From assembly GCF_027497255.1 (NCBI RefSeq), contig NZ_CP114903.1:5642001-5706000 (forward strand): 64,000 nt of DNA. Reading direction: 5' to 3'. The position numbers and the translations under genes were made by a program. This stretch comes from Micromonospora sp. WMMD882 (GTDB taxonomy: Bacteria > Actinomycetota > Actinomycetes > Mycobacteriales > Micromonosporaceae). Below the pieces are notes generated by a model. The model saw only the letters and a program-made list of their open reading frames with translations, was not told the origin of the DNA and made no database searches. Shown piece by piece: positions 38,322 to 51,929 of the stretch (its first letter is position 1; every line of letters starts with the position of its first letter).

Positions 38322-41161
38322 CCGCCCGCGCCGTCCCCGACGGCCCCCGCCTCGGCGACGCCGCCCGCTCGGTGTGGGGCAAGACCGACCGCAAGGGGAC
38401 CTCGCCGGTCGGCTGGCTGCCGCTGTGGCGGCACCTGGCCGACGCCGCCGACGTGGCCGGTCAACTGTGGGACCACTGGCTCAGCCCGGCGGTCCGCCGA
38501 CGGATCGCCGACGAGCTGCCCGGCGGCGACCGGGACGCCCGTACCCTGGCGGTCTGGCTGGCCGGCGTGCACGACGTCGGCAAGGCCACCCCGGCCTTCG
38601 CCTGCCAGGCGTACGCGTTGGCGGAGCGGATGCGTGACCACGGGCTCGGCTACCACCGGGACCTCATCCGCGCCGACCGCCGCCACGCCCCGCACGCCAC
38701 CGCCGGGCACCTCGTGCTCGCGGACTGGCTGGACGAGCAGGACTGGACCGACCCGCACCCGTACGCGGTGGTCGTCGGCGGCCACCACGGGACGCCGCCG
38801 ACCGACGAGGGCCTGCGGGCGGCGCGGCTCCGTCCACACCTGCTCGGCGACCCGGCCTGGCGGGCGGCGCAGCGGGAGCTGCTGACCTGGATGACCGAGC
38901 GTTCCGGCGCGGCGGACCGCCTCGTCGACTGGCGGGACGTCCCGTTGTCGCAGCCGGCGCAGGCCGCCCTCACCGGCCTGGTCATCGTCGCCGACTGGAT
39001 CGCCAGCAACGAGGAACTGTTCCCGTACCTGCTGGACGGCACGGACGCCGGTCGGCTGAGCTTCGGCTGGGAGACGCTCGACCTGCCCACGCCCTGGCAG
39101 CCCACCGCGTCGACGCCCGGCGTGGACGAGCTGTTCGCGGCCCGTTTCGCGCTGCCCGACGGGGCGACCCCGCGTCCGGTCCAGCGGACGGCCGCCGAGC
39201 TGGCCACCACCATGCCCACCCCCGGCATGATCATCATCGAGGCGGCGATGGGGGAGGGCAAGACCGAGGCGGCCCTGGCGGCGGTGGAGATCCTGGCCCG
39301 GCGGACCGGGGCGGCCGGCTGCTACCTGGCCCTGCCCACCCGGGCCACCAGCGACGCCATGTTCGGCCGGATGCTGTCCTGGCTCCGCCGACTGCCCGAC
39401 GCGCAGAGCGGTCGGGGTGGCCGCGACGTCCGGCTGGCCCACGGCAAGGCGGCGCTCAACCCCGAGTACGACCGACTCCGGACGACCATGCTGCCCAGCG
39501 GCATCGCCCAGGACGCCGGCGGCACGGACGTCGGCGTGCACCGCTGGCTCGCCGGCCCCAAACGCACCCTGCTCTCCAGCTTCGTCGTGGGCACCATCGA
39601 CCAGCTCCTCTTCGCGGCGCTGCGCGGCAGACACCTCGTGCTGCGGCACCTCGGCCTGGCCGGCAAGGTCGTCGTCATCGACGAGGCGCACGCCTACGAC
39701 GTCTACATGGGATGCTTCCTGGACCGGGCGCTGGAGTGGCTCGGCGCGTACGGCGTGCCCGTGGTCGTCCTGTCGGCGACCCTGCCGGCGGGCCGGCGGG
39801 CCGAGCTGATGGCGGCGTACGACACCGGTCGGCTCGGGCCGCTGCCCAAGCCCACCTGGCGCGACCGGGGCAGACCGCGCGTCGACCCGTACGCGGCGCT
39901 CCGCGCCGACCTGCGGTACCCCCTGGTCACCGTCTCCACGCCCGGGCGGGGGGCGACGGCCGTCGACTGCGCCGACTCCGGCCGGGGCGTCGAGGTCCAG
40001 GTGCGGCGGCTGCCCGACGACCTGCCGGTGCTGGTCGAGGCGCTCCGGGGCCAGTTGGCGGACGGCGGCTGCGCCCTCGTGGTCCGTAACACCGTGGCCC
40101 GGGTCCAGGAGACCGCCGCCGCGCTGCGGGCGGCCCTCGGGCCGGACGTTCCCGTTTCGGTGGCGCACTCCCGCTTCCTGGCCGTCGACCGGGCCACGAA
40201 GGACCGCTGGCTGCGTGACACCTTCGGGCCGCCGGGCGGCGCGACCCGCCCGGCCCGGCACGTGGTGGTGGCCAGCCAGGTCGCCGAGCAGTCCCTGGAC
40301 ATCGACTTCGACCTGCTCGTCACCGACCTCGCCCCGGTCGACCTGGTGCTGCAACGCGTCGGCCGACTGCACCGGCACCCGCGCGCCGACCGTCCGGCCC
40401 GGCTGGCCGCCCCGATCTGCTGGATCACCGGCGCGGACTGGGCCACCGAGCCACCCGAGCCGGTCGCCGGATCCCGTCGCGTCTACCAGCCGGCCGCCCT
40501 GCTGCGCAGCGCCGCGGTGCTGCTGCCGCACCTCGACGGCACGCCGCTGCGGCTGCCGGCGGACATCGCCCCGCTCACCCAGGCCGCCTACGGCGACACG
40601 CCCGTCGGCCCGCCGTCCTGGCAGCCGACGCTTACCGAGGCGGAGGCGAAGCAGCGTGACGAGATGGTCACCAAGGAGCTGAAGGCCGACGGCTTCCGCC
40701 TGGCCGGCGTCGCCGAGCCCGGCACGCCGCTGATCGGCTGGCTCTCCGGTGGCGTCGGCGACGCGGACGAGCGGGTGGCGAAGGGCCACGTCCGCGACAC
40801 CGACGCCGACTCCTTCGAGGTCCTGCTACTGGTACGCGCCGACGCCGGCCTCGTCGTCCCCCCATGGATCGACGGCGGCGGGACGCCCGTACGCACCGAC
40901 AGCGTGCCGCCCTGGCCGCTGCCCCGGCTGATCGCGCGCTGCGCCCTGCCCCTGCCCCGGGCGATGACCTCGGCGGACGTGGTCGACGAGGTGATCGCCG
41001 AACTGGAACGGCGCACTGACCTCAGTGCCTGGCAGGGCAGCCCGTGGTTGGCCGGCGAGCTCCTGCTCGACGTCGATTCGGACGGCACGGCCACCGTCGC
41101 CGGATTCGACCTGCGCTACGACCCGACCGAAGGTCTGCGCGTCACCCGCGCCACGACCTGA
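38318..41161 (+). CDS. cas3: CRISPR-associated helicase/nuclease Cas3 (type I-E)
   Basis: A 947-residue effector nuclease-helicase recruited by Cascade to degrade target DNA. An N-terminal HD nuclease domain with AGVHDVGKATPAF near residue 85 and GGHHGTPP near 150; then a DExD/H helicase with Walker A AAMGEGKTEAAL near 310, IDEAHAYD near 455, LSATLPAGRR, and motif VI around LVLQRVGRLHRHPR near 675; then a C-terminal domain. The length fits I-E Cas3. It starts with a GTG overlapping the helicase stop (GTGA). A 48-bp gap containing two CCTTCGAG copies separates it from cas8e. Confidence 0.96.
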   Translation: MTARAVPDGPRLGDAARSVWGKTDRKGTSPVGWLPLWRHLADAADVAGQLWDHWLSPAVRRRIADELPGGDRDARTLAVWLAGVHDVGKATPAFACQAYALAERMRDHGLGYHRDLIRADRRHAPHATAGHLVLADWLDEQDWTDPHPYAVVVGGHHGTPPTDEGLRAARLRPHLLGDPAWRAAQRELLTWMTERSGAADRLVDWRDVPLSQPAQAALTGLVIVADWIASNEELFPYLLDGTDAGRLSFGWETLDLPTPWQPTASTPGVDELFAARFALPDGATPRPVQRTAAELATTMPTPGMIIIEAAMGEGKTEAALAAVEILARRTGAAGCYLALPTRATSDAMFGRMLSWLRRLPDAQSGRGGRDVRLAHGKAALNPEYDRLRTTMLPSGIAQDAGGTDVGVHRWLAGPKRTLLSSFVVGTIDQLLFAALRGRHLVLRHLGLAGKVVVIDEAHAYDVYMGCFLDRALEWLGAYGVPVVVLSATLPAGRRAELMAAYDTGRLGPLPKPTWRDRGRPRVDPYAALRADLRYPLVTVSTPGRGATAVDCADSGRGVEVQVRRLPDDLPVLVEALRGQLADGGCALVVRNTVARVQETAAALRAALGPDVPVSVAHSRFLAVDRATKDRWLRDTFGPPGGATRPARHVVVASQVAEQSLDIDFDLLVTDLAPVDLVLQRVGRLHRHPRADRPARLAAPICWITGADWATEPPEPVAGSRRVYQPAALLRSAAVLLPHLDGTPLRLPADIAPLTQAAYGDTPVGPPSWQPTLTEAEAKQRDEMVTKELKADGFRLAGVAEPGTPLIGWLSGGVGDADERVAKGHVRDTDADSFEVLLLVRADAGLVVPPWIDGGGTPVRTDSVPPWPLPRLIARCALPLPRAMTSADVVDEVIAELERRTDLSAWQGSPWLAGELLLDVDSDGTATVAGFDLRYDPTEGLRVTRATT

Positions 41162-41209
41162 CCATCCTTCGAGCCGACCACCCTTCGAGTCACCTGAGGA
41201 GGTGACGCC

Positions 41210-42886
41210 ATGACCGGAGCACCGCGCCGGACCGGCTTCTCGCTTGTCGACGAGGCGTGGATCCCGGTGTTGGACACTGCGGGCCAGCGGCGCGACGTGT
41301 CGCTGCTCGGCCTCTTCGAGCAGGCCGGCGAGGTACGCGTGATCGCCGCTGAGCTGCCCACGCAGACCTTCGCGATCCTGCGGCTCGCCCTGGCCGTCCT
41401 GCACCGGGTCACCGGCGGGCCGCCCGGCGAAGCCGCCTGGCGGGGCATGTGGCGGCACCGGCAACTGCCGACCGCCGACGTCGCCGACTACCTCGGGGAG
41501 TTCCGGGACCGCTTCGACCTGTTCCACCCGGAGCGCCCGTTCTACCAGGTCGCCGACCTGCGGGCCGGCAAGGACAACACGTACGGGCTGGAACGGATCA
41601 TCGCCGACGTGCCGAACGGTCTGCCGTTCCTGACCACCCGTGCCGGGCCGGGGATGGAGTCGGTCACCCCGGCCGAGGCGGCCCGCTGGCTGGTGCACTG
41701 CCAGGCGTACGACCCGTCCGGCATCAAGACCGGCGCGGTCGGCGACCCCCGGGTCAAGGGCGGCAAGGGCTACCCGATCGGCGTCGCGTCGCTCGGGTCG
41801 CTGGGCGGCGTGCACCTCGAAGGCGCGACCCTGCTGGAGACCCTGCTGCTCAACCTGGCGCCGGTCGCGCCCGGCTGGCAGCAGGCCGACGAGCGGGACC
41901 TGCCGGTCTGGGAACGCGCGCCGCAGACCGCCGCCGAGGAGGCCGACGCCACCCGTGGCCCGTACGGGGTGCTGGGCCTCTACACCTGGCAGTCCCGCCG
42001 GATCCGGCTCTTCGGTGACGTCGGCGGCGTCACCGGGGCGATGATCTCCAACGGTGACCGGATCGAGTGGCAGGACCGGCACCTGCTGGAGCCGATGAGC
42101 GTCTGGGGACGCAGCGGCCCCCGGGAGCAGAAAGAGAAACGTACCCCGATCTACCTGCCCCGGCCGCACGACCACAGCCGGGCGTTGTGGCGGGGGTTGC
42201 AGACCCTGCTGCCGTCGCCGCCGTCCGGCGGGGACGCGCCGCAGCGGCTGTCGCCGATGGTGGTGCGGTGGCTGGCCCGGTTGACCGTGACCGGGGTGGT
42301 CGGCGCGGACTTCCAGGTCCGTACCCGGGCCACCAGCGTCACCTACGGCACCCAGCAGGCGGTCGTGGCCGAGGTGTTCGGCGACGCGCTCACCATGAAC
42401 GTGTTGCTGCTGGTCGACGACTCGGCGCTGCGTACCACGGCGGTGGACGCCACCGCCGACGCGGAGGACGCGGTGAAGGTGCTGCGCCGGCTCGCCGACA
42501 ACCTGGCCCGCGCCGCCGGTGACCGGGCCACCGACGTCGGTGAGGCCGACCGGGCGGCCGAACGCGCGTACGCCCTGCTGGACCGGCTCTTTCGGGACTG
42601 GCTGGCCCGGCTCGGTCCGGGCAGCGACCCGGTGGCCGAACGCGCGACCTGGCAGCGGAACGTCAACGAGGTGGTCCGTCGGCTCGGCGCGGACCTGGTC
42701 CGGGAGGCGGGGCCGGCGGCCTGGGTCGGCCGGGCCGGCAGGGACCGCGCCGGCCGGGAGGCGCACTACTCCAGCTCGCAGGCGGAAGCGTGGTTCCGCG
42801 CCGGCCTGGCCAGGGCGCTGCCGATGGCAGTCGACCGGGAGCCGGACACCGGTTCACCACAGCAGAGGCAGGAGGCAACAGCATGA
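41210..42886 (+). CDS. cas8e: Type I-E Cascade large subunit Cse1/CasA (Cas8e)
   Basis: A 558-residue Cascade subunit that recognises the PAM and recruits Cas3. N-terminal FSLVDEAWIPVLDTAGQRRDVSLLGLFEQA is typical of Cse1, as are FHPERPFYQV and YPIGVASLGSLGGVHLEGATLLETLLLNL. The C-terminal region is a helical bundle. The length is slightly above the E. coli protein (502). The ribosome site GAGGAGGTGAC before the ATG is the strongest of the operon. Its stop overlaps cse2 by 4 nt (ATGA). Confidence 0.95.
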   Translation: MTGAPRRTGFSLVDEAWIPVLDTAGQRRDVSLLGLFEQAGEVRVIAAELPTQTFAILRLALAVLHRVTGGPPGEAAWRGMWRHRQLPTADVADYLGEFRDRFDLFHPERPFYQVADLRAGKDNTYGLERIIADVPNGLPFLTTRAGPGMESVTPAEAARWLVHCQAYDPSGIKTGAVGDPRVKGGKGYPIGVASLGSLGGVHLEGATLLETLLLNLAPVAPGWQQADERDLPVWERAPQTAAEEADATRGPYGVLGLYTWQSRRIRLFGDVGGVTGAMISNGDRIEWQDRHLLEPMSVWGRSGPREQKEKRTPIYLPRPHDHSRALWRGLQTLLPSPPSGGDAPQRLSPMVVRWLARLTVTGVVGADFQVRTRATSVTYGTQQAVVAEVFGDALTMNVLLLVDDSALRTTAVDATADAEDAVKVLRRLADNLARAAGDRATDVGEADRAAERAYALLDRLFRDWLARLGPGSDPVAERATWQRNVNEVVRRLGADLVREAGPAAWVGRAGRDRAGREAHYSSSQAEAWFRAGLARALPMAVDREPDTGSPQQRQEATA

Positions 42887-43593
42887 CCATGGTGGACACC
42901 GGGCCGCCGGAGCGGGTCGACCTCGACCAGCCGCCCGGCCCGACCCGCAGACCGTGGCGGCGGCGTCGCACGGACCTCGGCGACCACGTCGCCCGGACGG
43001 TCGGCGGGCTCCAGGCGCGGGCGCTGCGCACCGTGCCGGTGCCCGAGGCGGTCAGCGCGCTGGCCCGGCTCCGGCGCGGGATCGGCCGGACCCCGGGCTT
43101 CGACTTCACCCTGGAGTCGTATCTCCAGGTACCGCCGGACCTGCTCGGCCGGCTGCCGGACGACGACACCGAGGCGGCGGACACCGAGTACGCCACCCAC
43201 GACGCGGTGACCCTGTACGCGCTGCACCAGCAGTCCCGCCGTGAGCGGATGCACATGGACGGGCGCGGGCTGGGGCTGGCCCTGGCCGAGCTGGTCCGCC
43301 GGACCGCCGGCCCGGACGGGGTACGGCGGCGCTTCGCCGCGCTGGGCACCGCCAGCAGCTACCCCGAGAGCGTCCACCACCTGCGCAGCCTGATCACCAT
43401 GCTGCGCGAACACCAGATCCCACTCGACTACGGCCTGCTCGCCGACGACCTGTGGACCCTGCGCCGGCCGCCGCGTCCCGGCCAGCCGGACGGCCGGTCG
43501 AAGGTCCAGGGCATCTGGGGTCGTGAGTTCTTCCGCAGCCGGCCCGGCCCGGCCGCCGCTGACACTGACCTTCCCGAGGAGGACCCGTCATGA
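42883..43593 (+). CDS. cse2: Type I-E Cascade small subunit Cse2/CasB
   Basis: A 236-residue helical protein that forms the Cascade small-subunit dimer contacting displaced DNA. The N-terminus (40 residues) is Pro/Arg-rich. Recognisable Cse2 segments are ARLRRGIGRTPG, a conserved basic motif, and the later YGLLADDLWTLRRP. The ATG at 42883 overlaps the cas8e stop (ATGA), with AGGAGG upstream. Its own stop overlaps the cas7e start by 4 nt. Confidence 0.92.
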   Translation: MTMVDTGPPERVDLDQPPGPTRRPWRRRRTDLGDHVARTVGGLQARALRTVPVPEAVSALARLRRGIGRTPGFDFTLESYLQVPPDLLGRLPDDDTEAADTEYATHDAVTLYALHQQSRRERMHMDGRGLGLALAELVRRTAGPDGVRRRFAALGTASSYPESVHHLRSLITMLREHQIPLDYGLLADDLWTLRRPPRPGQPDGRSKVQGIWGREFFRSRPGPAAADTDLPEEDPS

Positions 43594-44714
43594 GCCGTAC
43601 CATCATCGACGTCCACGCGTTGCAGACCGTGCCGCCGAGCAACCTCAACCGCGACGACACCGGCTCGCCGAAGACCGCCGTCTACGGCGGCGTACGTCGG
43701 GCGCGGGTCTCCAGCCAGGCGTGGAAGCGGGCGATCCGGCTGGCCTTCGCCGGTCTGCTCGACCGGTCCCAGCTCGGCGAGCGGACCAAGCGGGTCGGCG
43801 AGTCGCTGGCCGCCCGGATCAGGGCGCTCGACCCGGACGTGACCGGGGAGGAGGCGTCGGCGCTGGCCGCCGAGGTCTTCGTCGCCGGTGGGCTGGCCAA
43901 ACTCGACAAGAAGAAGGGCGAGCTGAAGGACGTCGAGTCCGGCTACCTGCTGTTCCTCAGCCACCGCCAGTCGGACAATCTCGCCGCCGCCGCGCTGGAG
44001 GCGTCCCGGGCCGGCGTCGCCCTCGACAGGGGCCGGTTCAAGGAGCTGGTCAACAGCGAGCACTCGGTCGACATCGCGATGTTCGGCCGGATGGTCGCCG
44101 ACCTGTCCGACATCAACGTCGACGCCGCCTGCCAGGTGTCCCACGCGATAAGCGTGCACGCCGTGGACAACGAGTTCGACTACTTCACCGCCGTGGACGA
44201 CCGCAAGGCGGACGCCGCCGAGACCGGCGCCGGCATGATCGGCACCGTCGAGTTCAACTCGTCCACGCTGTACCGGTACGCGACGGTCGACGTGGACGCG
44301 CTGCACCGTACCCTCGGCGACGCCGCCGCGACCCGGGCCGCCGTCGAGGCGTTCCTCACCGCGTTCGCCCGCAGCATGCCGACCGGCAAGCAGAACACCT
44401 TCGCGCACCGTACGCTGCCCGACGCGGTGCTGGTCCGGGTGCGCGACAGCCAGCCGATCAACCTGGTCGGCGCGTTCGAGACGCCCATCCGCGAGACGCA
44501 CGCCGCCGGCCGGATCGAGCTGGCCGCCGAAGCCCTGGCCAAGCACACCCGGGCGGTCGAGAGCGCCTACGGTGAGCGGCCGGTCGGCGCCTGGGTCACC
44601 CAGGTCGGGGAGCAGACCGCCGTGCTCGCCGACCTCGGCAAGGCTGTCACCCTCAGCGAGCTGGTCACCGGAGTGGGGGAGCAGGTCGCCGTCGCCCTCG
44701 GACAGCCCGCATGA
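43590..44714 (+). CDS. cas7e: Type I-E Cascade backbone subunit Cas7e/CasC (Cse4)
   Basis: A 374-residue backbone subunit, present in six copies along crRNA in I-E Cascade. It carries the hallmark start IDVHALQTVPPSNLNRDDTGSPKTA and GGVRRARVSSQAWKRAIR, then IAMFGRMVADLSDINVDAACQVSHAISVHAV, a segment strongly conserved in Cas7e. The ATG overlaps the cse2 stop and the end overlaps the cas5e start, both by 4 nt. Confidence 0.96.
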   Translation: MSRTIIDVHALQTVPPSNLNRDDTGSPKTAVYGGVRRARVSSQAWKRAIRLAFAGLLDRSQLGERTKRVGESLAARIRALDPDVTGEEASALAAEVFVAGGLAKLDKKKGELKDVESGYLLFLSHRQSDNLAAAALEASRAGVALDRGRFKELVNSEHSVDIAMFGRMVADLSDINVDAACQVSHAISVHAVDNEFDYFTAVDDRKADAAETGAGMIGTVEFNSSTLYRYATVDVDALHRTLGDAAATRAAVEAFLTAFARSMPTGKQNTFAHRTLPDAVLVRVRDSQPINLVGAFETPIRETHAAGRIELAAEALAKHTRAVESAYGERPVGAWVTQVGEQTAVLADLGKAVTLSELVTGVGEQVAVALGQPA

Positions 44715-45412
44715 GCGTGCTGCTGCTGAAACTGGCCGGTCCGCTCCAGTCCTGGGGCTCGTCCAGCCGGTTCGCCCGCCGGGGCACCGAGCCCGCGCCC
44801 ACCAAGAGCGGGGTGATCGGCCTGCTCGCCGCAGCCAAGGGCATCCGCCGCGCCGAGCCGCTCACCGAGCTGCTCGGTCTGGAGTTCGGGGTCCGCATCG
44901 ACCAGCCCGGCCAGGTCCTGCGGGACTTCCAGACCGCCCGGCCCCTCGACGGCCGGTCCAGCGCCCCGCTGACGTACCGCTTCTACCTCTCCGACGCGGT
45001 GTTCCTGGCCGCCGTCGGTGGCGAGGCGGAGCTGCTGTACGGCCTCGCGGAGGCGTTGGACCGGCCGCGGTTCCCGCTCTACCTCGGGCGTCGGTCGTGC
45101 CCGCCGGTCGGCCCGGTCAGCCTCGGCGTGCACGACGGGACCCTCGACGGCGCGCTCACCGACTGGCCGTGGCTGGCCGCCGAGTGGCACCGCCGCAAGG
45201 CGGCCCGCACCGTCCGGCTGGAGATCGTCCGGGACGCCCGGCCGGGCGAGCCGGTGCACGAGACCGTGCCCGACGAGCCGGTGAGCTTCGACCCGGCGCA
45301 CCGGCAGCACACCTGGCGGTCGGTGCTGCGGCGGCACGTCGACGTCACCAACGACCTCGCGGAGCGGGCCGGGGTCGTGGACCACGACCCGTTGAGCCTG
45401 CTGGGAGGCTGA
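44711..45412 (+). CDS. cas5e: Type I-E Cascade subunit Cas5e/CasD
   Basis: A 233-residue RAMP protein that caps the 5' handle of the crRNA. The start LLLKLAGPLQSWGSSSRFARR and the following PTKSGVIGLLAAAKGI are diagnostic of Cas5e. PLYLGRRSCPPVGPVSLGV follows near residue 120. The ATG overlaps the cas7e stop by 4 nt, and cas6e begins 2 nt after its stop. Confidence 0.95.
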   Translation: MSVLLLKLAGPLQSWGSSSRFARRGTEPAPTKSGVIGLLAAAKGIRRAEPLTELLGLEFGVRIDQPGQVLRDFQTARPLDGRSSAPLTYRFYLSDAVFLAAVGGEAELLYGLAEALDRPRFPLYLGRRSCPPVGPVSLGVHDGTLDGALTDWPWLAAEWHRRKAARTVRLEIVRDARPGEPVHETVPDEPVSFDPAHRQHTWRSVLRRHVDVTNDLAERAGVVDHDPLSLLGG

Positions 45413-45414
45413 GC

Positions 45415-46092
45415 ATGTTCCTCACCCGATTCCCGATCAACCCGGCCCGCCGGGCCGCGCGCAAGCTGCTCTCCTCGCCGCACGCCATGCACGCGGCCGT
45501 CCGGGCCGCCTTCCCCGCCGTCGAGGACTACGAAACCGCCGACGCCCGTACGCTGTGGCGGCTCGACGCCCCGGCCGCGCACACCGTCCACCTGTACGTC
45601 GTCAGCCCCGGCCGCCCCGACCTCACCCACCTGGTCGAGCAGGCCGGTTGGCCGACCAGCGCGGAGAGCTGGGTGACCCGCGACTACGGCGGCCTGCTCG
45701 ACTCCCTGGCCGCCGGCCAGCGCTGGGCGTTCCGGCTGACCGCGAACCCCGCCCACAGCGGACGCAAGACCGCCGACGCCAAGGAGACCCAACGTTTCGG
45801 CCACCTGCGCGAGCCGGAGCAGGTCGGATGGCTGGTCAGCCGGGCCGCCCGCAACGGGTTCGCCCTGGCCGAGCAGCAGGACGGCCAGCCCAACCTGCGG
45901 CTGCGCCGACGGCAGACGCAGTCCTTCAAGCGGGGGATGGGCACGGTCACCCTCACCACGGCCACCTACGACGGCATCCTCACCGTCACCGACGCGGACG
46001 CCTTCCGGCGGGCGCTGACCGGCGGCATCGGCCACGCCAAGGCGTACGGCTGCGGTCTGCTCACGCTGGCTCCCGCGCAGACGGCGACGTGA
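45415..46092 (+). CDS. cas6e: CRISPR RNA endonuclease Cas6e/CasE
   Basis: A 225-residue ribonuclease that cuts the repeat hairpin of pre-crRNA and stays bound to it. N-terminal MFLTRFPINPARRAARKLLSSPHAMHAAV includes the conserved His positions (the catalytic His lies in the SPHAMHA stretch). The C-terminal glycine-rich loop is GGIGHAKAYGCGLLTLAP. Length and motifs are standard. It starts at the ATG 2 nt after cas5e. A longer open frame upstream is only a shadow of cas5e. Confidence 0.95.
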   Translation: MFLTRFPINPARRAARKLLSSPHAMHAAVRAAFPAVEDYETADARTLWRLDAPAAHTVHLYVVSPGRPDLTHLVEQAGWPTSAESWVTRDYGGLLDSLAAGQRWAFRLTANPAHSGRKTADAKETQRFGHLREPEQVGWLVSRAARNGFALAEQQDGQPNLRLRRRQTQSFKRGMGTVTLTTATYDGILTVTDADAFRRALTGGIGHAKAYGCGLLTLAPAQTAT

Positions 46093-47060
46093 GGATCCCC
46101 GGTGTTCCGCCGGCCGAGCTGGCGGAGCTCAACCGCGCGCAGGACCGGCTCAGCTTCGTCTACCTGGAACGCTGCGTCATCCACCGGGACGCCAACGCGA
46201 TCACCGCCACCGACGAGAAGGGCGTCGTCCACATCCCGGCGGCGACCCTCGGGGTGCTCATGCTCGGGCCGGGCACCAGCGTCACCCAGCAGGCGATGAT
46301 GCTGCTCGCCGACAACGGGGCCACCGCCGTCTGGGTCGGTGAGCAGGGCGTCCGGTACTACGCGCACGGCCGTACGCTCGCCCGGTCGAGCCGGCTGATC
46401 GTCGCCCAGGCCGCCGCCGTGTCGCACCGGGACCGCCGGCTCGACGTGGCACGGGCGATGTACCGGATGCGCTTCCCCGACGAGGCGGACACCCGCGCCC
46501 TGACCATGCAACAGTTGCGTGGCCGGGAGGGGGCGCGGGTGCGCCGCTGCTACCGCGAGCACGCCGAACGCACCGGCATCGGCTGGCAGAACCGGACGTA
46601 CGACCCGGAGGACTTCGACAGCGGCGACCCGGTGAACCAGGCGTTGTCCGCCGCGCACGCCTGTTTGTACGGCATCGTGCACGCGGTCATCGTCGCCCTC
46701 GGCGCGTCACCCGCGCTGGGCTTCGTGCACACCGGGAACGAGAGATCCTTCGTGTACGACATAGCCGACCTCTACAAGGCCGAGGTCACCATTCCGGTCG
46801 CGTTCGACGTGGCCGCCAGCGGGTCGACCGACATCGGTTCCGACACCCGCCGGGCGGTACGCGACCGGGCGCACGACGGCGCGATCCTGCACCGCTGCGT
46901 ACGCGACATCCGGGCCCTGCTGCTCCAGCCCGGCGCGGCCGGGCCGATCGACGAGGCGTGGCTCGACGAGGACGCCGGCGACGACACCCTACGGCTCTGG
47001 GACGACGACGGCGCCGAGCTGGCCAGCGGCCGGAACTACGCCGGCGAGGTCGACTTCTGA
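46089..47060 (+). CDS. cas1e: CRISPR integrase Cas1 (type I-E)
   Basis: A 323-residue metal-dependent integrase that, with Cas2, inserts new spacers. Metal-site residues can be placed: Glu in RGREGARVRR, His in GFVHTGNERSF, and Asp in YDIADLYKAE. The N-terminal beta domain (RLSFVYLERCVIHRDANAI) and TWVGEQG-like loop region are typical. The C-terminus is rich in Asp. It starts with a GTG overlapping the cas6e stop (GTGA) and ends overlapping cas2 by 1 nt. Confidence 0.96.
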   Translation: MRIPGVPPAELAELNRAQDRLSFVYLERCVIHRDANAITATDEKGVVHIPAATLGVLMLGPGTSVTQQAMMLLADNGATAVWVGEQGVRYYAHGRTLARSSRLIVAQAAAVSHRDRRLDVARAMYRMRFPDEADTRALTMQQLRGREGARVRRCYREHAERTGIGWQNRTYDPEDFDSGDPVNQALSAAHACLYGIVHAVIVALGASPALGFVHTGNERSFVYDIADLYKAEVTIPVAFDVAASGSTDIGSDTRRAVRDRAHDGAILHRCVRDIRALLLQPGAAGPIDEAWLDEDAGDDTLRLWDDDGAELASGRNYAGEVDF

Positions 47061-47470
47061 TGACGGTCATCATCCTCACCGCCTGCCCCGAAGGGCTGCG
47101 CGGGCACCTGACCCAGTGGCTGCTGGAGATCTCCGCCGGGGTGTACGTCGGACACGTCAACAGCCGGATCCGGAAACGGCTCTGGCTCAAGGTCGTGGAG
47201 ATGGCCGGACCGGGCCGGGCGCTGCTGGTCCACCAGCAGCCGGGGGAGCAGCGACTCTCCTTCGAGGTGCACGACCACCACTGGAAACCGGTCGACCTCG
47301 ACGGCGTCACCCTGATCCGCCGCCCCACGGACCGGCGGGTCTTCAACCCCGCGCTGCCCAAGGGATGGAGCAAGGCCGCCAAGCGTCGCCGCTTCGGGCG
47401 GCGGCCCTCAACACCGCCCGGCCAGCCGCCCGAACTTCCGAATCAAAGTGAAGGAAAAACCATGAGTTGA
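47060..47470 (+). CDS. cas2e: CRISPR-associated Cas2e with C-terminal extension
   Basis: A 136-residue adaptation protein of the CRISPR-Cas2/CasE-type family: start MTVIILTACPEGLRGHLTQWL, then VYVGHVNSRIRKRLWLKV. E. coli Cas2 has 94 residues. The extra 30-40 residues here are basic and low in complexity (KGWSKAAKRRRFGRRPSTPP, then GQPPELPNQSEGKTMS). The last 15 codons are AT-richer than the rest and end only 25 bp before the first CRISPR repeat, so part of the CRISPR leader must lie inside the cas2 coding end. Confidence 0.94.
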   Translation: MTVIILTACPEGLRGHLTQWLLEISAGVYVGHVNSRIRKRLWLKVVEMAGPGRALLVHQQPGEQRLSFEVHDHHWKPVDLDGVTLIRRPTDRRVFNPALPKGWSKAAKRRRFGRRPSTPPGQPPELPNQSEGKTMS

Positions 47471-47495: not shown

Positions 47496-48739
47496 CTGCT
47501 CCCCGCGCACGCGGGGATGATCCTTCGGCGTACCGGGTACCGGAATGCCGAACCCGCTGCTCCCCGCGCACGCGGGGATGATCCTGGGCGTCTCTGGTGA
47601 CAGCTACCGTCGCTTCACTGCTCCCCGCGCACGCGGGGATTATCCCAGTCGGGTGCGTCTCAAGAAACCCTCCGGAGGCTGCTCCCCGCGCACGCGGGGA
47701 TGATCCCGCGCACCGGGTCGCCATCATCGAGCAGGGCAACTGCTCCCCGCGCACGCGGGGATGATCCCTGATCAACACGGTCAGGGCGACCCGGGTCGGC
47801 CTGCTCCCCGCGCACGCGGGGATGATCCGCTAATCCCGTGGGAGCGCTATTTCGCGCCGCACTGCTCCCCGCGCACGCGGGGATGATCCTTGGTGGAATT
47901 CGAGTCGAAGGGGCAGAAGCGCCTGCTCCCCGCGCACGCGGGGATGATCCTGACCGCGTGCGTCGGTGACAGCTTCGCCGGCGCTGCTCCCCGCGCACGC
48001 GGGGATGATCCCGCCACCCCACCGGCGGGGAGCCCGACGCCGCCCTGCTCCCCGCGCACGCGGGGATGATCCCGGCTTCGGGAGCATCCCGAGGACGGAC
48101 GTCACCTGCTCCCCGCGCACGCGGGGATGATCCGGCCGCGCGCGCTATGACCGGCATCCCCGCGGCCTGCTCCCCGCGCACGCGGGGATGATCCGTGTCA
48201 GCACCCGCCACAACCCACCATTCGACTGCTCCCCGCGCACGCGGGGATGATCCGGTGCAGGGCGACCTGTACCACGGCCGAATCCCCTGCTCCCCGCGCA
48301 CGCGGGGATGATCCGCCTCACGACCGCCACCGCGCCGCCCACGCCCGCTGCTCCCCGCGCACGCGGGGATGATCCGTGTCAGCACCCGCCACAACCCACC
48401 ATTCGACTGCTCCCCGCGCACGCGGGGATGATCCGGTGCAGGGCGACCTGTACCACGGCCGAATCCCCTGCTCCCCGCGCACGCGGGGATGATCCGCCTC
48501 ACGACCGCCACCGCGCCGCCCACGCCCGCTGCTCCCCGCGCACGCGGGGATGATCCCGTGGCGTTCGTCGAGGACTTGTCCGCGCCCTCCTGCTCCCCGC
48601 GCACGCGGGGATTATCCGTGGCTCCGCCCGGCCGAGCCGGCACCGAAGCCCTGCTCCCCGCGCGGGCGGGGATGATCCCGCCAGCCGGGGCATGCCGGGC
48701 GGCACGGTGATCTGCTCCCCGCGCACGCGGGGATGATCC
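47496..48739 (+). CRISPR. Type I-E CRISPR array: 21 repeats, 20 spacers, plus a degenerate final repeat
   Basis: The 28-bp repeat begins CTGCTCCCCGCG and ends GGGGATGATCC, with a CCCCGCG/CGCGGGG palindrome that gives the Cas6e hairpin. Full repeats start at 47496, 47557, 47618, 47679, 47740, 47801, 47862, 47923, 47984, 48045, 48106, 48167, 48226, 48287, 48348, 48407, 48468, 48529, 48590, 48651 and 48712. Spacers are 33 bp (period 61), except two copies of a 31-bp spacer (after 48167 and 48348). Repeats at 47618 and 48590 have GATTATCC in place of GATGATCC, and the one at 48651 has CGCGGGCGGGG. A decayed repeat follows at 48772. The orientation (+) matches the canonical I-E repeat and cas gene direction. 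The block 48167-48347 is duplicated as 48348-48528. Confidence 0.97.
48167..48528 (+). repeat. Tandem duplication of a three-unit block inside the CRISPR array
   Basis: Three spacers in order (at 48195-48225, 48254-48286 and 48315-48347) recur unchanged at 48376-48406, 48435-48467 and 48496-48528. The 181-bp block is therefore present twice in tandem. Confidence 0.95.
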
Positions 48740-48826: not shown

Positions 48827-49306
48827 CTATCTGGGGCCTTCGGCGGATTGCCGCTCGACGTCGGGTGCCTGTTCGATGGCTTCCTCGATTTTGTCGAGAT
48901 AGTCGAACCACCACTCTCCCTCGGGTTTCTGTCGTGAGGAGAGCAAGCTGCCCGCGACCACGAACGCGAGGATGACCGACACGTTCGGCGGAAGCGCCGA
49001 CTCCAGTGGTACGCCGTCGAGGATCGCCAGGAGGAAAGCGCGGTACTCATCCTCGGTGAAGGGTAGCGAGTCTTCCATGTGGGCGAGTTCTTCAGCCAGA
49101 TCGTCAAGATCGCTGTTGGCTGGTCTGCCCTCGAAGGCTTCGAGAAGGACGAACAGGGAGACGGCTACGAGGAGCTCCAGGGAAGCGGTTCTTGTCTGCT
49201 CGTCAGGGAAGTCGCGTAATGCCTTCTCGAATTCGCCCTTCCGGCGTTTCACCACGAGGTGTAGCGTCTCTCGCACTCGTTGTTCGACTCTGTCGTCAAT
49301 CCTCAC
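48827..49306 (-). CDS. Unknown protein C' (second copy of cassette protein C)
   Basis: A 159-residue protein, mostly helical, of unknown function. It starts MRIDDRVEQRVRETLHLVVKRRKGEFEKAL and contains a conserved LELLVAVSLFVLLEAF hydrophobic stretch near residue 45, NVSVILAFVVAGSLLSS near 110, and EGEWWFDYLDKIEEAIE near the end. It is clearly homologous to the product of 49631-50077 (about 40-50 % identical by eye, same motif order). The start GTG at 49306 overlaps the end of the preceding gene by 11 nt, exactly as the first-copy C overlaps B. Base composition is lower in GC than the neighbouring chromosome. It lies tail to tail with the CRISPR array. Confidence 0.75.
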   Translation of the reverse strand: MRIDDRVEQRVRETLHLVVKRRKGEFEKALRDFPDEQTRTASLELLVAVSLFVLLEAFEGRPANSDLDDLAEELAHMEDSLPFTEDEYRAFLLAILDGVPLESALPPNVSVILAFVVAGSLLSSRQKPEGEWWFDYLDKIEEAIEQAPDVERQSAEGPR

Positions 49307-49634
49307 TGTCGCCCCCTTGGCTTCTTCTTTTCTCCCGTATCGCCTCGGTGGCGCCCCAAGTCGCGATTGCGCCCAGTGCTACGCCGCCGATTGTCTTCGG
49401 TATGATCGGTAAGAATTCGGTGAACGAGGCCCAAATGGTTGCGAGTGCCGAGCGGCCCGCCCTCGCCGTCCGAACAAGCGTTGGGTGCGGTTCTGGACTG
49501 GCTGCCCGGGTGGCCGACGAGATGTGCTGCCGCCGCCCGTGCTCAGTTTCCCAGGTTCTGGACCTGGGTGATCGTCTCCTTGATGCCCTGTTGGGCGGGG
49601 GCGAGCGCGTCGCTCCGCTGGGCCGCGTTGTCAT
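49296..49634 (-). CDS. Small membrane protein B' (second copy, N-terminus out of frame, probably decayed)
   Basis: The open frame codes for 112 residues. Only the last 50 or so (ATIWASFTEFLPIIPKTIGG, then VALGAIATWGATEAIREKRR) align with protein B from 50067-50387, including the P-x-x-P-K helix start and the charged tail. The first 60 residues are read from what should be the end of an A-type gene and the beginning of B' in another frame: the B-like start STGGSTSRRPPGQP is found in the frame that begins at 49546. A single indel between the two parts would restore a normal B. The ORF start is an ATG overlapping the stop of gene C (ATGA). It is either a fusion product or a pseudogene. Confidence 0.45.
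   Translation of the reverse strand: MTTRPSGATRSPPPNRASRRRSPRSRTWETEHGRRQHISSATRAASPEPHPTLVRTARAGRSALATIWASFTEFLPIIPKTIGGVALGAIATWGATEAIREKRRSQGGDSED
49543..49632 (-). pseudogene. Remnant A': C-terminal 29 codons of cassette gene A
   Basis: Read in the frame that ends with TGA at 49543-49545, this stretch gives A-P-A-Q-Q-G-I-K-E-T-I-T-Q-V-Q-N-L-G-N, which aligns with the end of protein A (GPAQQGIQETIAKVRALGN). The first 58 or so codons of A are missing. No start codon of its own is available. It marks where the second copy of the A-B-C cassette was cut. Confidence 0.7.
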
Positions 49635-50077
49635 CTTTTGGCCTCGATTGCGGCCTCGATGCTGTCCAGGTAGTCGAACCACCATTTGCCTTCTAATTGC
49701 GGCTTGGAGGACAGGAGATTCCCGGCAACGAGGAATGCCAGGATGAGGGCGTTGCTGAGGTGAGCCTGCTCCGCTGGCTGCCCGCGAGAGAGTGCAAGTC
49801 GCAGTAGAGATGCGATCTCTGTCTGCTCTGCCCGGGACCACTGCTCAGTTCTGGCAATCTTGTCGGCAAGTACTGCCACTTCGTTGGCGTCCGGCTTGTG
49901 TCCGAAAACGTCGACTGCGGCAATGGCGCAGACCTGAAGCAGTAGTTCGAGTGCGGCCAGGCGTGATTGCTGGTCTTGGAAGGATTGCAGAGCGGTGCCG
50001 AATTCGCCGGGATCCTGCTTCACGACCCAGTGCAAGGTGTCGCGGACTTGGTTCTCGATGTTGTCGTCAATTCTCAT
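49631..50077 (-). CDS. Unknown protein C (cassette gene C, first copy)
   Basis: A 148-residue protein with start MRIDDNIENQVRDTLHWVVK, a hydrophobic stretch LELLLQVCAIAAVDVFG near residue 45, SNALILAFLVAGNLLSS near 110, and EGKWWFDYLDSIEAAIE at the end. The two hydrophobic stretches are long enough to be buried or membrane-associated helices, but they are not classic membrane spans. The family is not recognised. The ATG at 50077 overlaps the end of gene B by 11 nt. The stop overlaps the start of the B' frame. It is homologous to 48827-49306. Confidence 0.75.
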   Translation of the reverse strand: MRIDDNIENQVRDTLHWVVKQDPGEFGTALQSFQDQQSRLAALELLLQVCAIAAVDVFGHKPDANEVAVLADKIARTEQWSRAEQTEIASLLRLALSRGQPAEQAHLSNALILAFLVAGNLLSSKPQLEGKWWFDYLDSIEAAIEAKR

Positions 50078-50387
50078 CGTTGCTTGCCCTCTTCTTGCTG
50101 TCTCTCCAGGTCATGAAGGAGCTGGAACTCGCTACCAAGCCCAGCAGCGTGGCGACGATTGCCTTCGGCAGTGGGGGTAGGTACTCGGCGATCGCTGCCC
50201 ACGCCGTGCCGGCGGCAGATCCGCCGAACGCAAGCACCTCCGGGCTGGCGGGCCGGATTCTCCGTCTCGGCGGCGGTGCCTGCCTTCTGCCCTGCGAGCG
50301 CGTGTCGTCGCGGTTCGCCTCGTTTGGTATGGCCGGTCGAAGAACAGCGGGTGGCCGGCTTGGTGTGCTGCCGCCACCCGTGCTCAA
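50067..50387 (-). CDS. Small membrane protein B (cassette gene B)
   Basis: A 106-residue protein with a Gly/Ser/Pro/Arg-rich N-terminus (STGGGSTPSRPP, and basic RRQAPPPRRRIRP) and one or two hydrophobic helices near the C-terminus (AGTAWAAIAEYLPPLPKAIV, ATLLGLVASSSSFMTW) followed by a charged end (RDSKKRASNDEN). It probably sits in the membrane with the basic tail inside. Its TTG start overlaps the stop of gene A by 4 nt (TTGA), so its translation is coupled to A. It has no recognised family. Confidence 0.65.
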   Translation of the reverse strand: MSTGGGSTPSRPPAVLRPAIPNEANRDDTRSQGRRQAPPPRRRIRPASPEVLAFGGSAAGTAWAAIAEYLPPLPKAIVATLLGLVASSSSFMTWRDSKKRASNDEN

Positions 50388-50647
50388 TTTCCCAGAGCAC
50401 GGACCTTGGCAATCGTTTCCTGGATGCCCTGCTGGGCTGGCCCGACGGAGCCGATCGCTTGGCCTATTTGCTCGCGGGCGGCGTCGATGGTGGCGATGAG
50501 CTTGTCGCTGGCTGCGCCGTCGAGGGCTCCCGCGACCAGGATCCGCGCATTCTCGGCGTTCTGCACGGCTGCGGTGACCTGGGCTTGGGCTTGCTGGAGA
50601 GACTGGCCTGCCTCGGACAGTCGAGCGATGATCTCGGCCGCGCTCAC
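50384..50647 (-). CDS. Coiled-coil protein A (cassette gene A), DUF6244-like
   Basis: An 87-residue all-helical protein: V-S-A-A-E-I-I-A-R-L-S then heptad-like AGQSLQQAQAQVTAAVQNAE and GPAQQGIQETIAKVRALGN. Its size and style recall DUF6244 proteins of actinomycetes and loosely WXG100-type proteins, but there is no W-x-G. The GTG start at 50647 has a near-perfect ribosome site (AGGAGGTGAC). It is the first gene of the cassette A-B-C. The 106-bp gap to the GntR gene may hold its promoter. The C-terminal 19 residues have a near-copy at 49543-49632. Confidence 0.7.
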   Translation of the reverse strand: MSAAEIIARLSEAGQSLQQAQAQVTAAVQNAENARILVAGALDGAASDKLIATIDAAREQIGQAIGSVGPAQQGIQETIAKVRALGN

Positions 50648-50753: not shown

Positions 50754-51170
50754 TCAATCGGATTCCGGATAGTGGAGCACCACTCGATCGGCTGCGTGCA
50801 TCTGCACCTTGCCGTCCGGGCCTTCAACGATCAGGACTGGAACGCCCTCATCAAGATCCATCTGGTGTCGCTCGCGACTGGATGGCATCCGGGCGGACAC
50901 CTTGCTTCCCGGCAGCAGCTTGATCTGCTCGCGCGGCAGGTCTTCCCGCACCCAAGAGCCGAGGCCCCTGCTCGTGCTGACGACCCCCTCGGCCCGAAGT
51001 AGTGAGATCGCCATGCGGACGGCGTCGCGGCCGATCCCGTACTCCTGGCTCAGTCGTGACTCGCTGGGTACGGCGGAGCCGGCCGGCAGGTCACCTGACT
51101 CGATCCGGTCGCGGAGCAGTTGGGCGAGCTGCACGTACACCGGCGTGTGCGACCGAGGGTTGATGGCCAT
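50754..51170 (-). CDS. GntR-family transcriptional regulator
   Basis: A 138-residue regulator. Residues 8-75 are the GntR winged helix (PVYVQLAQLLRDRIESGDLP, PSESRLSQEYGIGRDAVRMA, LRAEGVVSTSRGLGSWVRE). The C-terminal 60 residues are too short for a full UTRA or FCD effector domain, so ligand binding is uncertain. It lies directly upstream of, and on the same strand as, the A-B-C cassette, so it may control it. A 14-bp inverted repeat CTTGT-GGCA-ACAAG (51238-51251) next to a TCTAGA in its upstream region looks like an operator for it. Confidence 0.85.
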   Translation of the reverse strand: MAINPRSHTPVYVQLAQLLRDRIESGDLPAGSAVPSESRLSQEYGIGRDAVRMAISLLRAEGVVSTSRGLGSWVREDLPREQIKLLPGSKVSARMPSSRERHQMDLDEGVPVLIVEGPDGKVQMHAADRVVLHYPESD

Positions 51171-51440: not shown

Positions 51441-51929
51441 ATGCGGCTCCTCTCCCGGCTGACCAGGCTCGCCCGGTCGACCCGGCCCATCCAACAGCGG
51501 GTGCCCGGTCACCGGCCGTCGGGCCAGCCGACCACCGGCCATCGGCCGCCGGGCCAGCCGACACCCGGTCACCGGCCGTCAGGCCACCCGGCTGCCAGCC
51601 GGCCGGTGACCGGCGGCGGCGTGTACCGGTCGGCGGCGTACCCGCCGTTGCGGCCCTGGCAGGTGCGGCGGCGACGGTTCCGCAGCGTCGGCCTGCTGCG
51701 GCGCGGCCTGGACCCGAACGACGTGCAGGACTTCCTGCGCCAGGTCGCCGACGACCTGAACAGCCTCTACGCGGAGCTGCACCAGAGCCGGGAGGAGACC
51801 GGCCGGGTCAAGGACGCGCTGCGCCGCTGGCAGTCCGAGTTCGCGCCGCGCGTCGACGACCACGCGTACCGGCCGTGCGCCGACGGGGAAGCGCGCCGCC
51901 CGCGCGCCAACCAGCGGGCGTACCGCTGA
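51441..51929 (+). CDS. DivIVA-domain-like protein with 10-residue repeats
   Basis: A 162-residue protein. Residues 20-55 hold three copies of a GHRPSGQPTT-like unit encoded by 30-bp repeats. Residues 68-135 match the DivIVA N-terminal pattern (RRRRFRSVGLLRRGLDPNDV, QDFLRQVADDLNSLYAELHQ, then a coiled coil through KDALRRWQSEF). DivIVA proteins recognise curved membrane at poles and septa. The protein is shorter than Wag31, so it is a DivIVA-like accessory protein. The ATG at 51441 follows GGAAGCGGC. The stop overlaps the next gene by 1 nt, and a third gene overlaps again, so the three form one translational unit. Confidence 0.75.
   Translation: MRLLSRLTRLARSTRPIQQRVPGHRPSGQPTTGHRPPGQPTPGHRPSGHPAASRPVTGGGVYRSAAYPPLRPWQVRRRRFRSVGLLRRGLDPNDVQDFLRQVADDLNSLYAELHQSREETGRVKDALRRWQSEFAPRVDDHAYRPCADGEARRPRANQRAYR

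Follow-up and report, generated by a model that had tools for sequence, protein, structure and literature searches.

The first two open reading frames (ORFs) of a three-gene cassette in Micromonospora sp. WMMD882, here called A and B, overlap by four nucleotides (nt), and this raises the question whether they are two genes or one and what they make together with the third, C. The cassette lies on the reverse strand of the 64,000-nt stretch of DNA that we analysed (contig NZ_CP114903.1, positions 5,642,001 to 5,706,000; referred to as the window) and is followed directly by a second, partly decayed copy, A'-B'-C' (Table 1). A first-pass annotation of the window had taken A, B and C for three separate products that work together. 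We find that A ends on a slippery heptamer, followed by a hairpin and by an open -1 frame, B, that is conserved among relatives; A and B are probably a single, frameshifted gene. Judged from the sequence, frameshifting at the A-B junction is very probable. Taking all parts together, it is likely that programmed frameshifting produces A-B as a polymorphic toxin, that C is its immunity protein and that A'-B'-C' is a displaced older module.

Putative slip site at the end of A

In relatives that carry B, A mostly ends with the codons CTG GGA AAC TGA, and B begins one base back, usually at CTG. The heptamer G_GGA_AAC thus stands directly 5' of the stop codon; most relatives have this form, and the window has GGGAAAT (then TGA). 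Both follow the pattern X_XXY_YYZ in the zero frame that characterizes signals for programmed -1 ribosomal frameshifting. What had been annotated as a plain gene overlap of 4 nt is instead a slippery heptamer with a stop codon. GGGAAAC or GGGAAAT was present in 22 of the 23 loci with a full-length B. In the 23rd, L118, which was excluded from the junction set, A is lost and the sequence 5' of B breaks off inside the heptamer, adjoining a group II intron gene. This reverse transcriptase gene (L118:2731-5186) occupies the place expected for A.

A wider comparison comprised 121 gene ends from Micromonospora loci, all belonging to DUF6244, the family of A. Matches below 30 bits or short of the last 8 profile columns were dropped, the A' remnant and broken copies were left out, and no two ends share identical 500-nt surroundings. 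L118 is represented by a tipless class-1 end (class 1 denotes loci in which DUF6244 forms the C-terminal half of a roughly 175-residue protein); its B, which has no A, is absent from the tipped ends. The heptamer was found in all 78 ends that continue into a C-terminal domain, or tip, in the -1 frame and in 22 of the 43 without a tip. Nearly all of the 21 ends without heptamer have another glycine codon, and none has a tip. Among 800 called genes with a stop codon in the related loci and the window, 44 end in GGGAAAN and all 44 are DUF6244 genes. Called genes of at least 150 residues (216,377 codons) contain the motif G_GGA_AAY in frame 5 times. GGA makes up 4.6% of glycine codons, and 59 of the 726 internal glycine codons in 100 DUF6244 genes with the heptamer.

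B could also be made separately, without any frameshift, if ribosomes terminated at the end of A and reinitiated at the overlapping CTG or TTG. Overlaps of 4 nt are common in coupled operons, and the overlap codon is CTG in 65 of the 78 tipped ends; in the window it is TTG, a legal start, so that reinitiation is possible in this copy. The other overlap codons are CTA (8), TTG (3), ATG (1) and CCA (1), however, and as CTA and CCA cannot initiate, 9 of the 78 ends do not fit. In the zero frame the heptamer is followed by a stop codon in 75 of the 78 ends and by a sense codon in three; the stop is TAG or TAA in eight; in all of these cases the tip still lies in the -1 frame. Neither the heptamer nor the hairpin has an evident role in reinitiation, and all ends without heptamer are tipless. 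Overall, separate translation of B is very improbable. Moreover, in 12 of 72 full tips the open -1 frame 5' of the tip domain contains none of the codons ATG, GTG and TTG.

The -1 frame itself is conserved as a coding frame. Differences between the B sequences of related loci number 140, 84 and 335 at the first, second and third -1-frame codon position (11 pairs), those in class-1 linkers 354, 304 and 523 (44 pairs), so that the third position changes most in both. A conserved -1 ORF without a start of its own is what is expected of a frameshift signal; in the window copy the overlap codon is TTG. In 5.77 billion proteins a B profile matched 2 fragments and a C profile 148, the best ~8,000 candidates being scored in each search. 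Scarce B matches are expected if gene callers miss a gene that lacks a start codon.

Hairpin downstream of the slippery heptamer

An RNA structure about 5-9 nt 3' of the heptamer belongs to such a signal, and the window has a hairpin at a spacing of 7 nt, with a minimum free energy of -23.5 kcal/mol (z = -2.94). The heptamer of A' is followed by a weaker one (at about 49508-49538, z = -1.66). The mean fold z of tipped ends is -1.94 for tips of the B type (n = 31), -2.9 for CdiA_C (n = 30) and -2.58 for deaminase tips (n = 7), compared with -0.53 for ends without heptamer (n = 20); the tipped ends are significantly lower (Mann-Whitney p = 9e-8). Ends with the heptamer but no full tip lie in between (-0.99, n = 27).

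The stem is well preserved in both classes of junctions, while covariation itself is modest. For the 23 class-2 junctions, of which 21 are distinct, pairing holds in 96.1% of 207 cells, compared with 29.5-64.7% in slid versions. Changes on both sides occur in 8 cells (shuffled mean 4.5; reached by 5 of 500 shuffles), and the covariation score of 0.122 is reached by 2 of 500. The 29 class-1 junctions (28 distinct) show pairing in 91.4% of 336 cells (slid versions 22.6-49.7%) and two-sided changes in 2 of 12 pairs, 3 cells in all (14 of 500 shuffles).

Tips on sister DUF6244 genes

The tips on the 78 tipped ends belong to B (33 full, 4 partial), CdiA_C (31 full, 2 partial) and a DddA-like deaminase family (8). 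In class 1 the ORF ends with GGGAAAC TGA in 29 of 30 loci, and the open -1 frame leads over a Gly/Pro linker to a CdiA_C domain in 25 of the 30 (a full tip being one with at least 70% of the profile covered); one locus has a partial domain and four have none. Another 20 loci, from weaker DUF6244 matches, gave CdiA_C tips (6 full, 1 partial), DddA-like tips (8) and tipless ends (5). Pfam matches were obtained for three CdiA_C tips (PF18451, E = 2.9e-18 to 1.2e-17) and four DddA-like tips (PF14428, E = 3.3e-20 to 2e-16); the remaining tips were assigned with profiles built in this analysis. In one locus (L150:1548-2306) the DUF6244 stop is lost and the zero frame enters the CdiA_C tip; this may be either a single-frame fusion of natural origin or a decayed copy.

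Unrelated C-terminal tips on a common carrier are a feature of polymorphic toxins, which, in the parts of Zhang et al. 2012 (PMC3482391) available to us, are described as combining a conserved carrier with a tip and a neighbouring gene that diverge together. The likeness extends to the conserved N-terminal carrier, the variable C-terminal tip, the co-diverging adjacent gene and tandem immunity-like alleles. In those systems, however, tip and carrier lie in one frame, whereas here they are joined by a -1 frameshift, and the DUF6244 carrier has only 87-175 residues. The same parts of PMC3482391 contain no mention of frameshifting or recoding. The toxin-like tips on sister DUF6244 genes point to competition between bacteria, not to phage defence.

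B and C as a putative toxin and immunity pair

B consists of a Gly/Pro/Arg-rich linker and an Ala/Gly-rich hydrophobic C-terminal part. A is the most conserved of the three over 33 cassettes, with a mean pairwise identity of 0.754; C has 0.47 and B, compared over its last 55 residues, 0.456. Mantel correlation between B and C is 0.858 (reached by none of 2000 permutations) and 0.844 given A, compared with 0.349 for A-B (11 of 2000) and 0.284 for A-C (19 of 2000). Tip and neighbouring gene thus diversify together, as in polymorphic toxins. The earlier suggestion that the products belong together is borne out by this correlation and by the position of B and C behind A in the fetched loci, with few exceptions: L001, where the contig is cut before A, L118, L184 (C only) and L179 (a C remnant). 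By analogy with known toxin and immunity pairs, it is reasonably likely that B is a toxin tip and C its immunity protein.

Neither B nor C has a Pfam or NCBIfam match up to E = 0.1, and matches in PADLOC and PHROGs are absent or weak. PDB sequence searches with A, B, C, one deaminase tip and the neighbouring gene D (see below) were empty or insignificant. A homologue of C (P0063) is called Imm6 in UniRef; with 72 C members, Imm6 is not among the best 25 of 37 families, and any Imm6 match beyond those 25 would be of one member at E of about 0.1 or more. C is present in 36 of 160 Micromonospora genomes; among 397 genomes of the order (9 candidates scored per genome), no other genus yielded it. 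Its relatives in the protein database, where named, come from Micromonospora and, in one case, Plantactinospora.

A real A-B fusion need not be a toxin. A could instead be tethered to the membrane by B and act with neighbouring products of the ancestral locus, an FtsK/SpoIIIE-like ATPase and coiled-coil proteins, with C as a third subunit. An ATPase and/or coiled-coil gene of this kind lies 5' of A in 46 of 58 loci, with A directly after it or, often, behind a GntR module. The ATPase of the type in L043 has 4nh0 ('Cell division FtsK/SpoIIIE') as its top match among solved structures, then EccC5 and YukB, and B does contain a hydrophobic part. The mean best 19-residue hydropathy of B, 1.57, is borderline for a membrane helix, however, and the stretches searched of the window, L181, L182, L184 and L189 contain no such ATPase gene. 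B and C vary and are missing from many loci that have A, and where sister genes carry another tip in place of B, it matches a toxin family. We regard a membrane tether as rather unlikely.

The DUF6244 carrier

A is a member of DUF6244 (PF19757), scoring 68.6 bits with a Pfam cut-off of 31.6. It is predicted to form a two-helix hairpin (helices 3-41 and 45-86; AlphaFold confidence, pLDDT, 93.8). The best Foldseek match is EsxA:EsxB of Thermomonospora curvata (TM-score 0.80/0.71, E = 0.13), but the fold is common and many unrelated hairpins fit equally well. A two-helix hairpin of about 100 residues is typical of WXG100/ESX proteins, and EspC-like substrates of type VII secretion share it; the link to A is a structural resemblance only. 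With the WXG100 profile, 1 of 37 DUF6244 members was matched, at an insignificant E = 0.036. One DUF6244 homologue (P0217) is named EspC-like in UniRef, and the host genome contains EccB and WXG100 matches. DUF6244 proteins in the database are mostly of ~175 residues, the length of the zero-frame product (longer fusions lie outside the length range searched). Of 121 genomes of the genus, 112 contain the family; among 150 genomes of the order it is confined to this genus.

Proposed mechanism

Based on these results we propose the following mechanism. Most ribosomes would end at the stop codon of A and release the DUF6244 carrier alone. A minority, paused by the hairpin, would slip back one base at GGGAAAT and read on in the -1 frame to yield an A-B fusion; this slippage and its rate we infer from the signal. 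The fusion would be a small polymorphic toxin with A as the conserved carrier and B as the variable effector tip. The ESX/WXG100-like hairpin of A may direct export. C, translated from the overlapping ORF, would protect the producer as cognate immunity protein.

Several observations weigh against this mechanism. The B of L118 is full-length without A and without an intact heptamer, and 22 tipless ends retain the heptamer (by eye, about 15 of them with remnants of a linker or of B and about 7 without). Some start codon, at varying positions, is present in the open -1 frame 5' of the tip domain in 60 of the 72 full tips, and the window has its legal TTG at the overlap. According to the parts of PMC5009743 available to us, G_GGA_AAC is shifty for mammalian ribosomes and is used in an archaeal virus, whereas E. 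coli favours heptamers ending in AAG; the slip codon here is AAC or AAT, at which Micromonospora ribosomes would have to slip. As to the hairpin, two-sided changes in class 2 occur in 2 of 10 pairs, which 71 of 500 shuffles match, and a slide by -3 scores 0.120, close to 0.122; in class 1, 53 of 500 shuffles attain the observed covariation score and a +3 slide scores higher. No match to a known toxin was obtained for B (the B of the window and two other members have no Pfam match), and C matches no known immunity family at E < 0.1 (72 members). Finally, the loci are related to each other and were picked from hit lists instead of being sampled at random, so that the counts are not independent.

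The gene dnaX is translated with programmed -1 frameshifting. So is the tail chaperone gene G-GT of phage lambda, according to parts of PMC5009743. The A-B junction resembles both in the X_XXY_YYZ heptamer, a hairpin 5-7 nt 3' of it, a stop directly after the slip site and a conserved -1 ORF. It differs in its slip codon, AAC or AAT instead of the AAG that E. coli favours, and in the presumed product, an effector fusion of a toxin family.

We lean, with more reserve, towards a general view in which DUF6244 genes form a new class of polymorphic toxins. In this class -1 frameshifting would set the ratio of empty to tipped carrier, and the shared slip site and linker would be the point at which tips (B, the nuclease-like CdiA_C, the DddA-like deaminase) are swapped. 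B-C would be a new effector-immunity family, with B nearly absent from databases for want of a start codon. The combination is new relative to known polymorphic toxin systems; in the titles and abstract beginnings of the open-licence literature we found no report of frameshifting in polymorphic toxins or of recoding in DUF6244. Recoding is known in viruses, mobile elements and a few bacterial genes, and here it appears to attach toxins of three unrelated tip families to one carrier across a bacterial genus. If true, this shows a way in which cells could keep a dangerous protein at a limited level during translation, accounts for gene finders overlooking such toxins and gives DUF6244 a function. 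It would also provide a simple rule for finding hidden toxins elsewhere: a slippery heptamer at a gene end together with an open -1 frame.

The second copy

A and A' share a repeat of 109 nt (77% identical). The second copy had been described as a reduced A', a B' with its start in another frame and an intact C'. The A' remnant and the intact C' stand; B' is broken: reading from the A' heptamer, its native frame reaches a stop at 49379, and the hydrophobic tail is encoded in a different frame. C and C' are 43% identical, and in a tree C groups with the C of L001 and L181 (support 99/96) and C' with that of L099 (95/92), although long branches make the placement less sure. The low identity and the grouping of each with C genes of other genomes speak against a recent duplication. 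With C and C' in separate clades, the tandem of the window joins two alleles. L180 has an intact tandem A-B-C-A-B-C, its two C genes also in different clades.

The decayed A'B' with an intact C' looks like an orphan immunity module. A'-B'-C' would be an older, displaced tip-immunity module, its toxin part decayed and its immunity gene kept. A solitary C remnant (L179:4804-5022) lies elsewhere in the source genome, near 3,253,743.

Layout and genomic setting

The ORFs A, B, C and C' and the A' remnant lie where the first-pass annotation had placed them, with overlaps of 4 nt (A-B) and 11 nt (B-C), and the upstream regulator is indeed of the GntR family. The guanine plus cytosine (GC) content is lower than around it, as had been noted: 0.60-0.65 across the cassette and ~0.70-0.78 in most flanking 500-nt bins. 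Rfam gave no match at gathering score in the window, and the scan of genome contigs gave one relative only.

Table 1. Features of the cassette and its immediate surroundings (positions in the window).
Feature	Position	Strand	Remarks
A, DUF6244 carrier	50384..50647	-	87 residues, GTG start; PF19757, E = 6.9e-19
Slippery heptamer G_GGA_AAT	50387..50393	-	adjoins stop codon TGA of A (50384-50386)
Downstream hairpin, presumed stimulator	50349..50379	-	begins 7 nt 3' of the heptamer
B, -1-frame extension, read as frameshift tip of A	50067..50387	-	106 codons
C, presumed immunity protein for B	49631..50077	-	all-alpha, 148 residues; AlphaFold pLDDT 90.6
A', final 29 codons of a second DUF6244 gene	49543..49632	-	profile match 34.9 bits
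Heptamer GGGAAAC of the A' remnant, then TGA	49546..49552	-	
B', decayed tip	49296..49545	-	native frame stops at 49379
C', intact second C allele, presumed orphan immunity gene	48827..49306	-	159 residues
GntR-family regulator upstream of A	50754..51170	-	PF00392, E = 1.8e-14
Divergent DivIVA-domain gene, marker of second insertion site	51441..51929	+	TIGR03544, E = 4.3e-9

The order A-B-C recurs in relatives, so the cassette is more than chance. Among 60 loci (window, L001 and 58 others) the layouts are A (15), A-D (15), A-B-C-D (14, one of which, L118, is in truth B-C-D without A), A-B-C (9) and A-B (3), with single cases of others. The first-pass annotation had named homologues occurring apart as the result that would speak against a joint function. 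This is partly the case: 30 of the 60 loci have A but neither B nor C. D (L043:8656-9087 and relatives) is a conserved protein of ~145 residues encoded 3' of A or of A-B-C (11 aligned members), with no gene copy in the window; the one member scanned had no Pfam match, and no PDB match was obtained. In L043 a pair of ATPase and coiled-coil genes (L043:3599-6983) precedes DUF6244, as in many relatives. The window copy occupies a second site, with the order DivIVA-GntR-A-B-C, as do those of L181, L189 and L182, the last having an extra A; in L184, C alone is left at this site.

A role in defence or in a mobile element had been suggested for the cassette. As an anti-phage module or mobile-element cargo, it would fit its low GC content, the type I-E CRISPR locus that adjoins the window copy and the restriction-modification genes beside several copies (L001, L044, L049 and L181 among others; in L181 a type ISP enzyme). 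HsdR or HsdM lies within the fetched flanks in 9 of 58 loci, however, and is absent from them in 49, and other copies lie beside the ATPase. There is no strong PADLOC or PHROG match; the best PADLOC matches (A to ZorA, E = 0.0089; A to DndD, E = 0.018; C' to a cyclase, E = 0.021) do not amount to a known defence model. Mobile genes occur in single cases only (the group II intron gene of L118 and, by eye, a transposase-like gene before A in L186), and the repeated chromosomal position counts against a mobile element. Defence or mobile cargo is very improbable. A CRISPR neighbour was seen at the window copy only, as judged from gene calls (no CRISPR search was made of the other loci), and the adjacency looks incidental.

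In L001 (L001:947-2924), B-C is followed by genes for a C-5 cytosine DNA methylase and a GIY-YIG protein. The type I-E genes of the window, named after NCBIfam cas3, cse1, cse2, cas7, cas5, cas6, cas1 and cas2, occupy positions 38318-47470. The array (48158-48519) contains a tandem duplication of 181 nt, 98% identical, which corresponds to about three repeat-spacer units.

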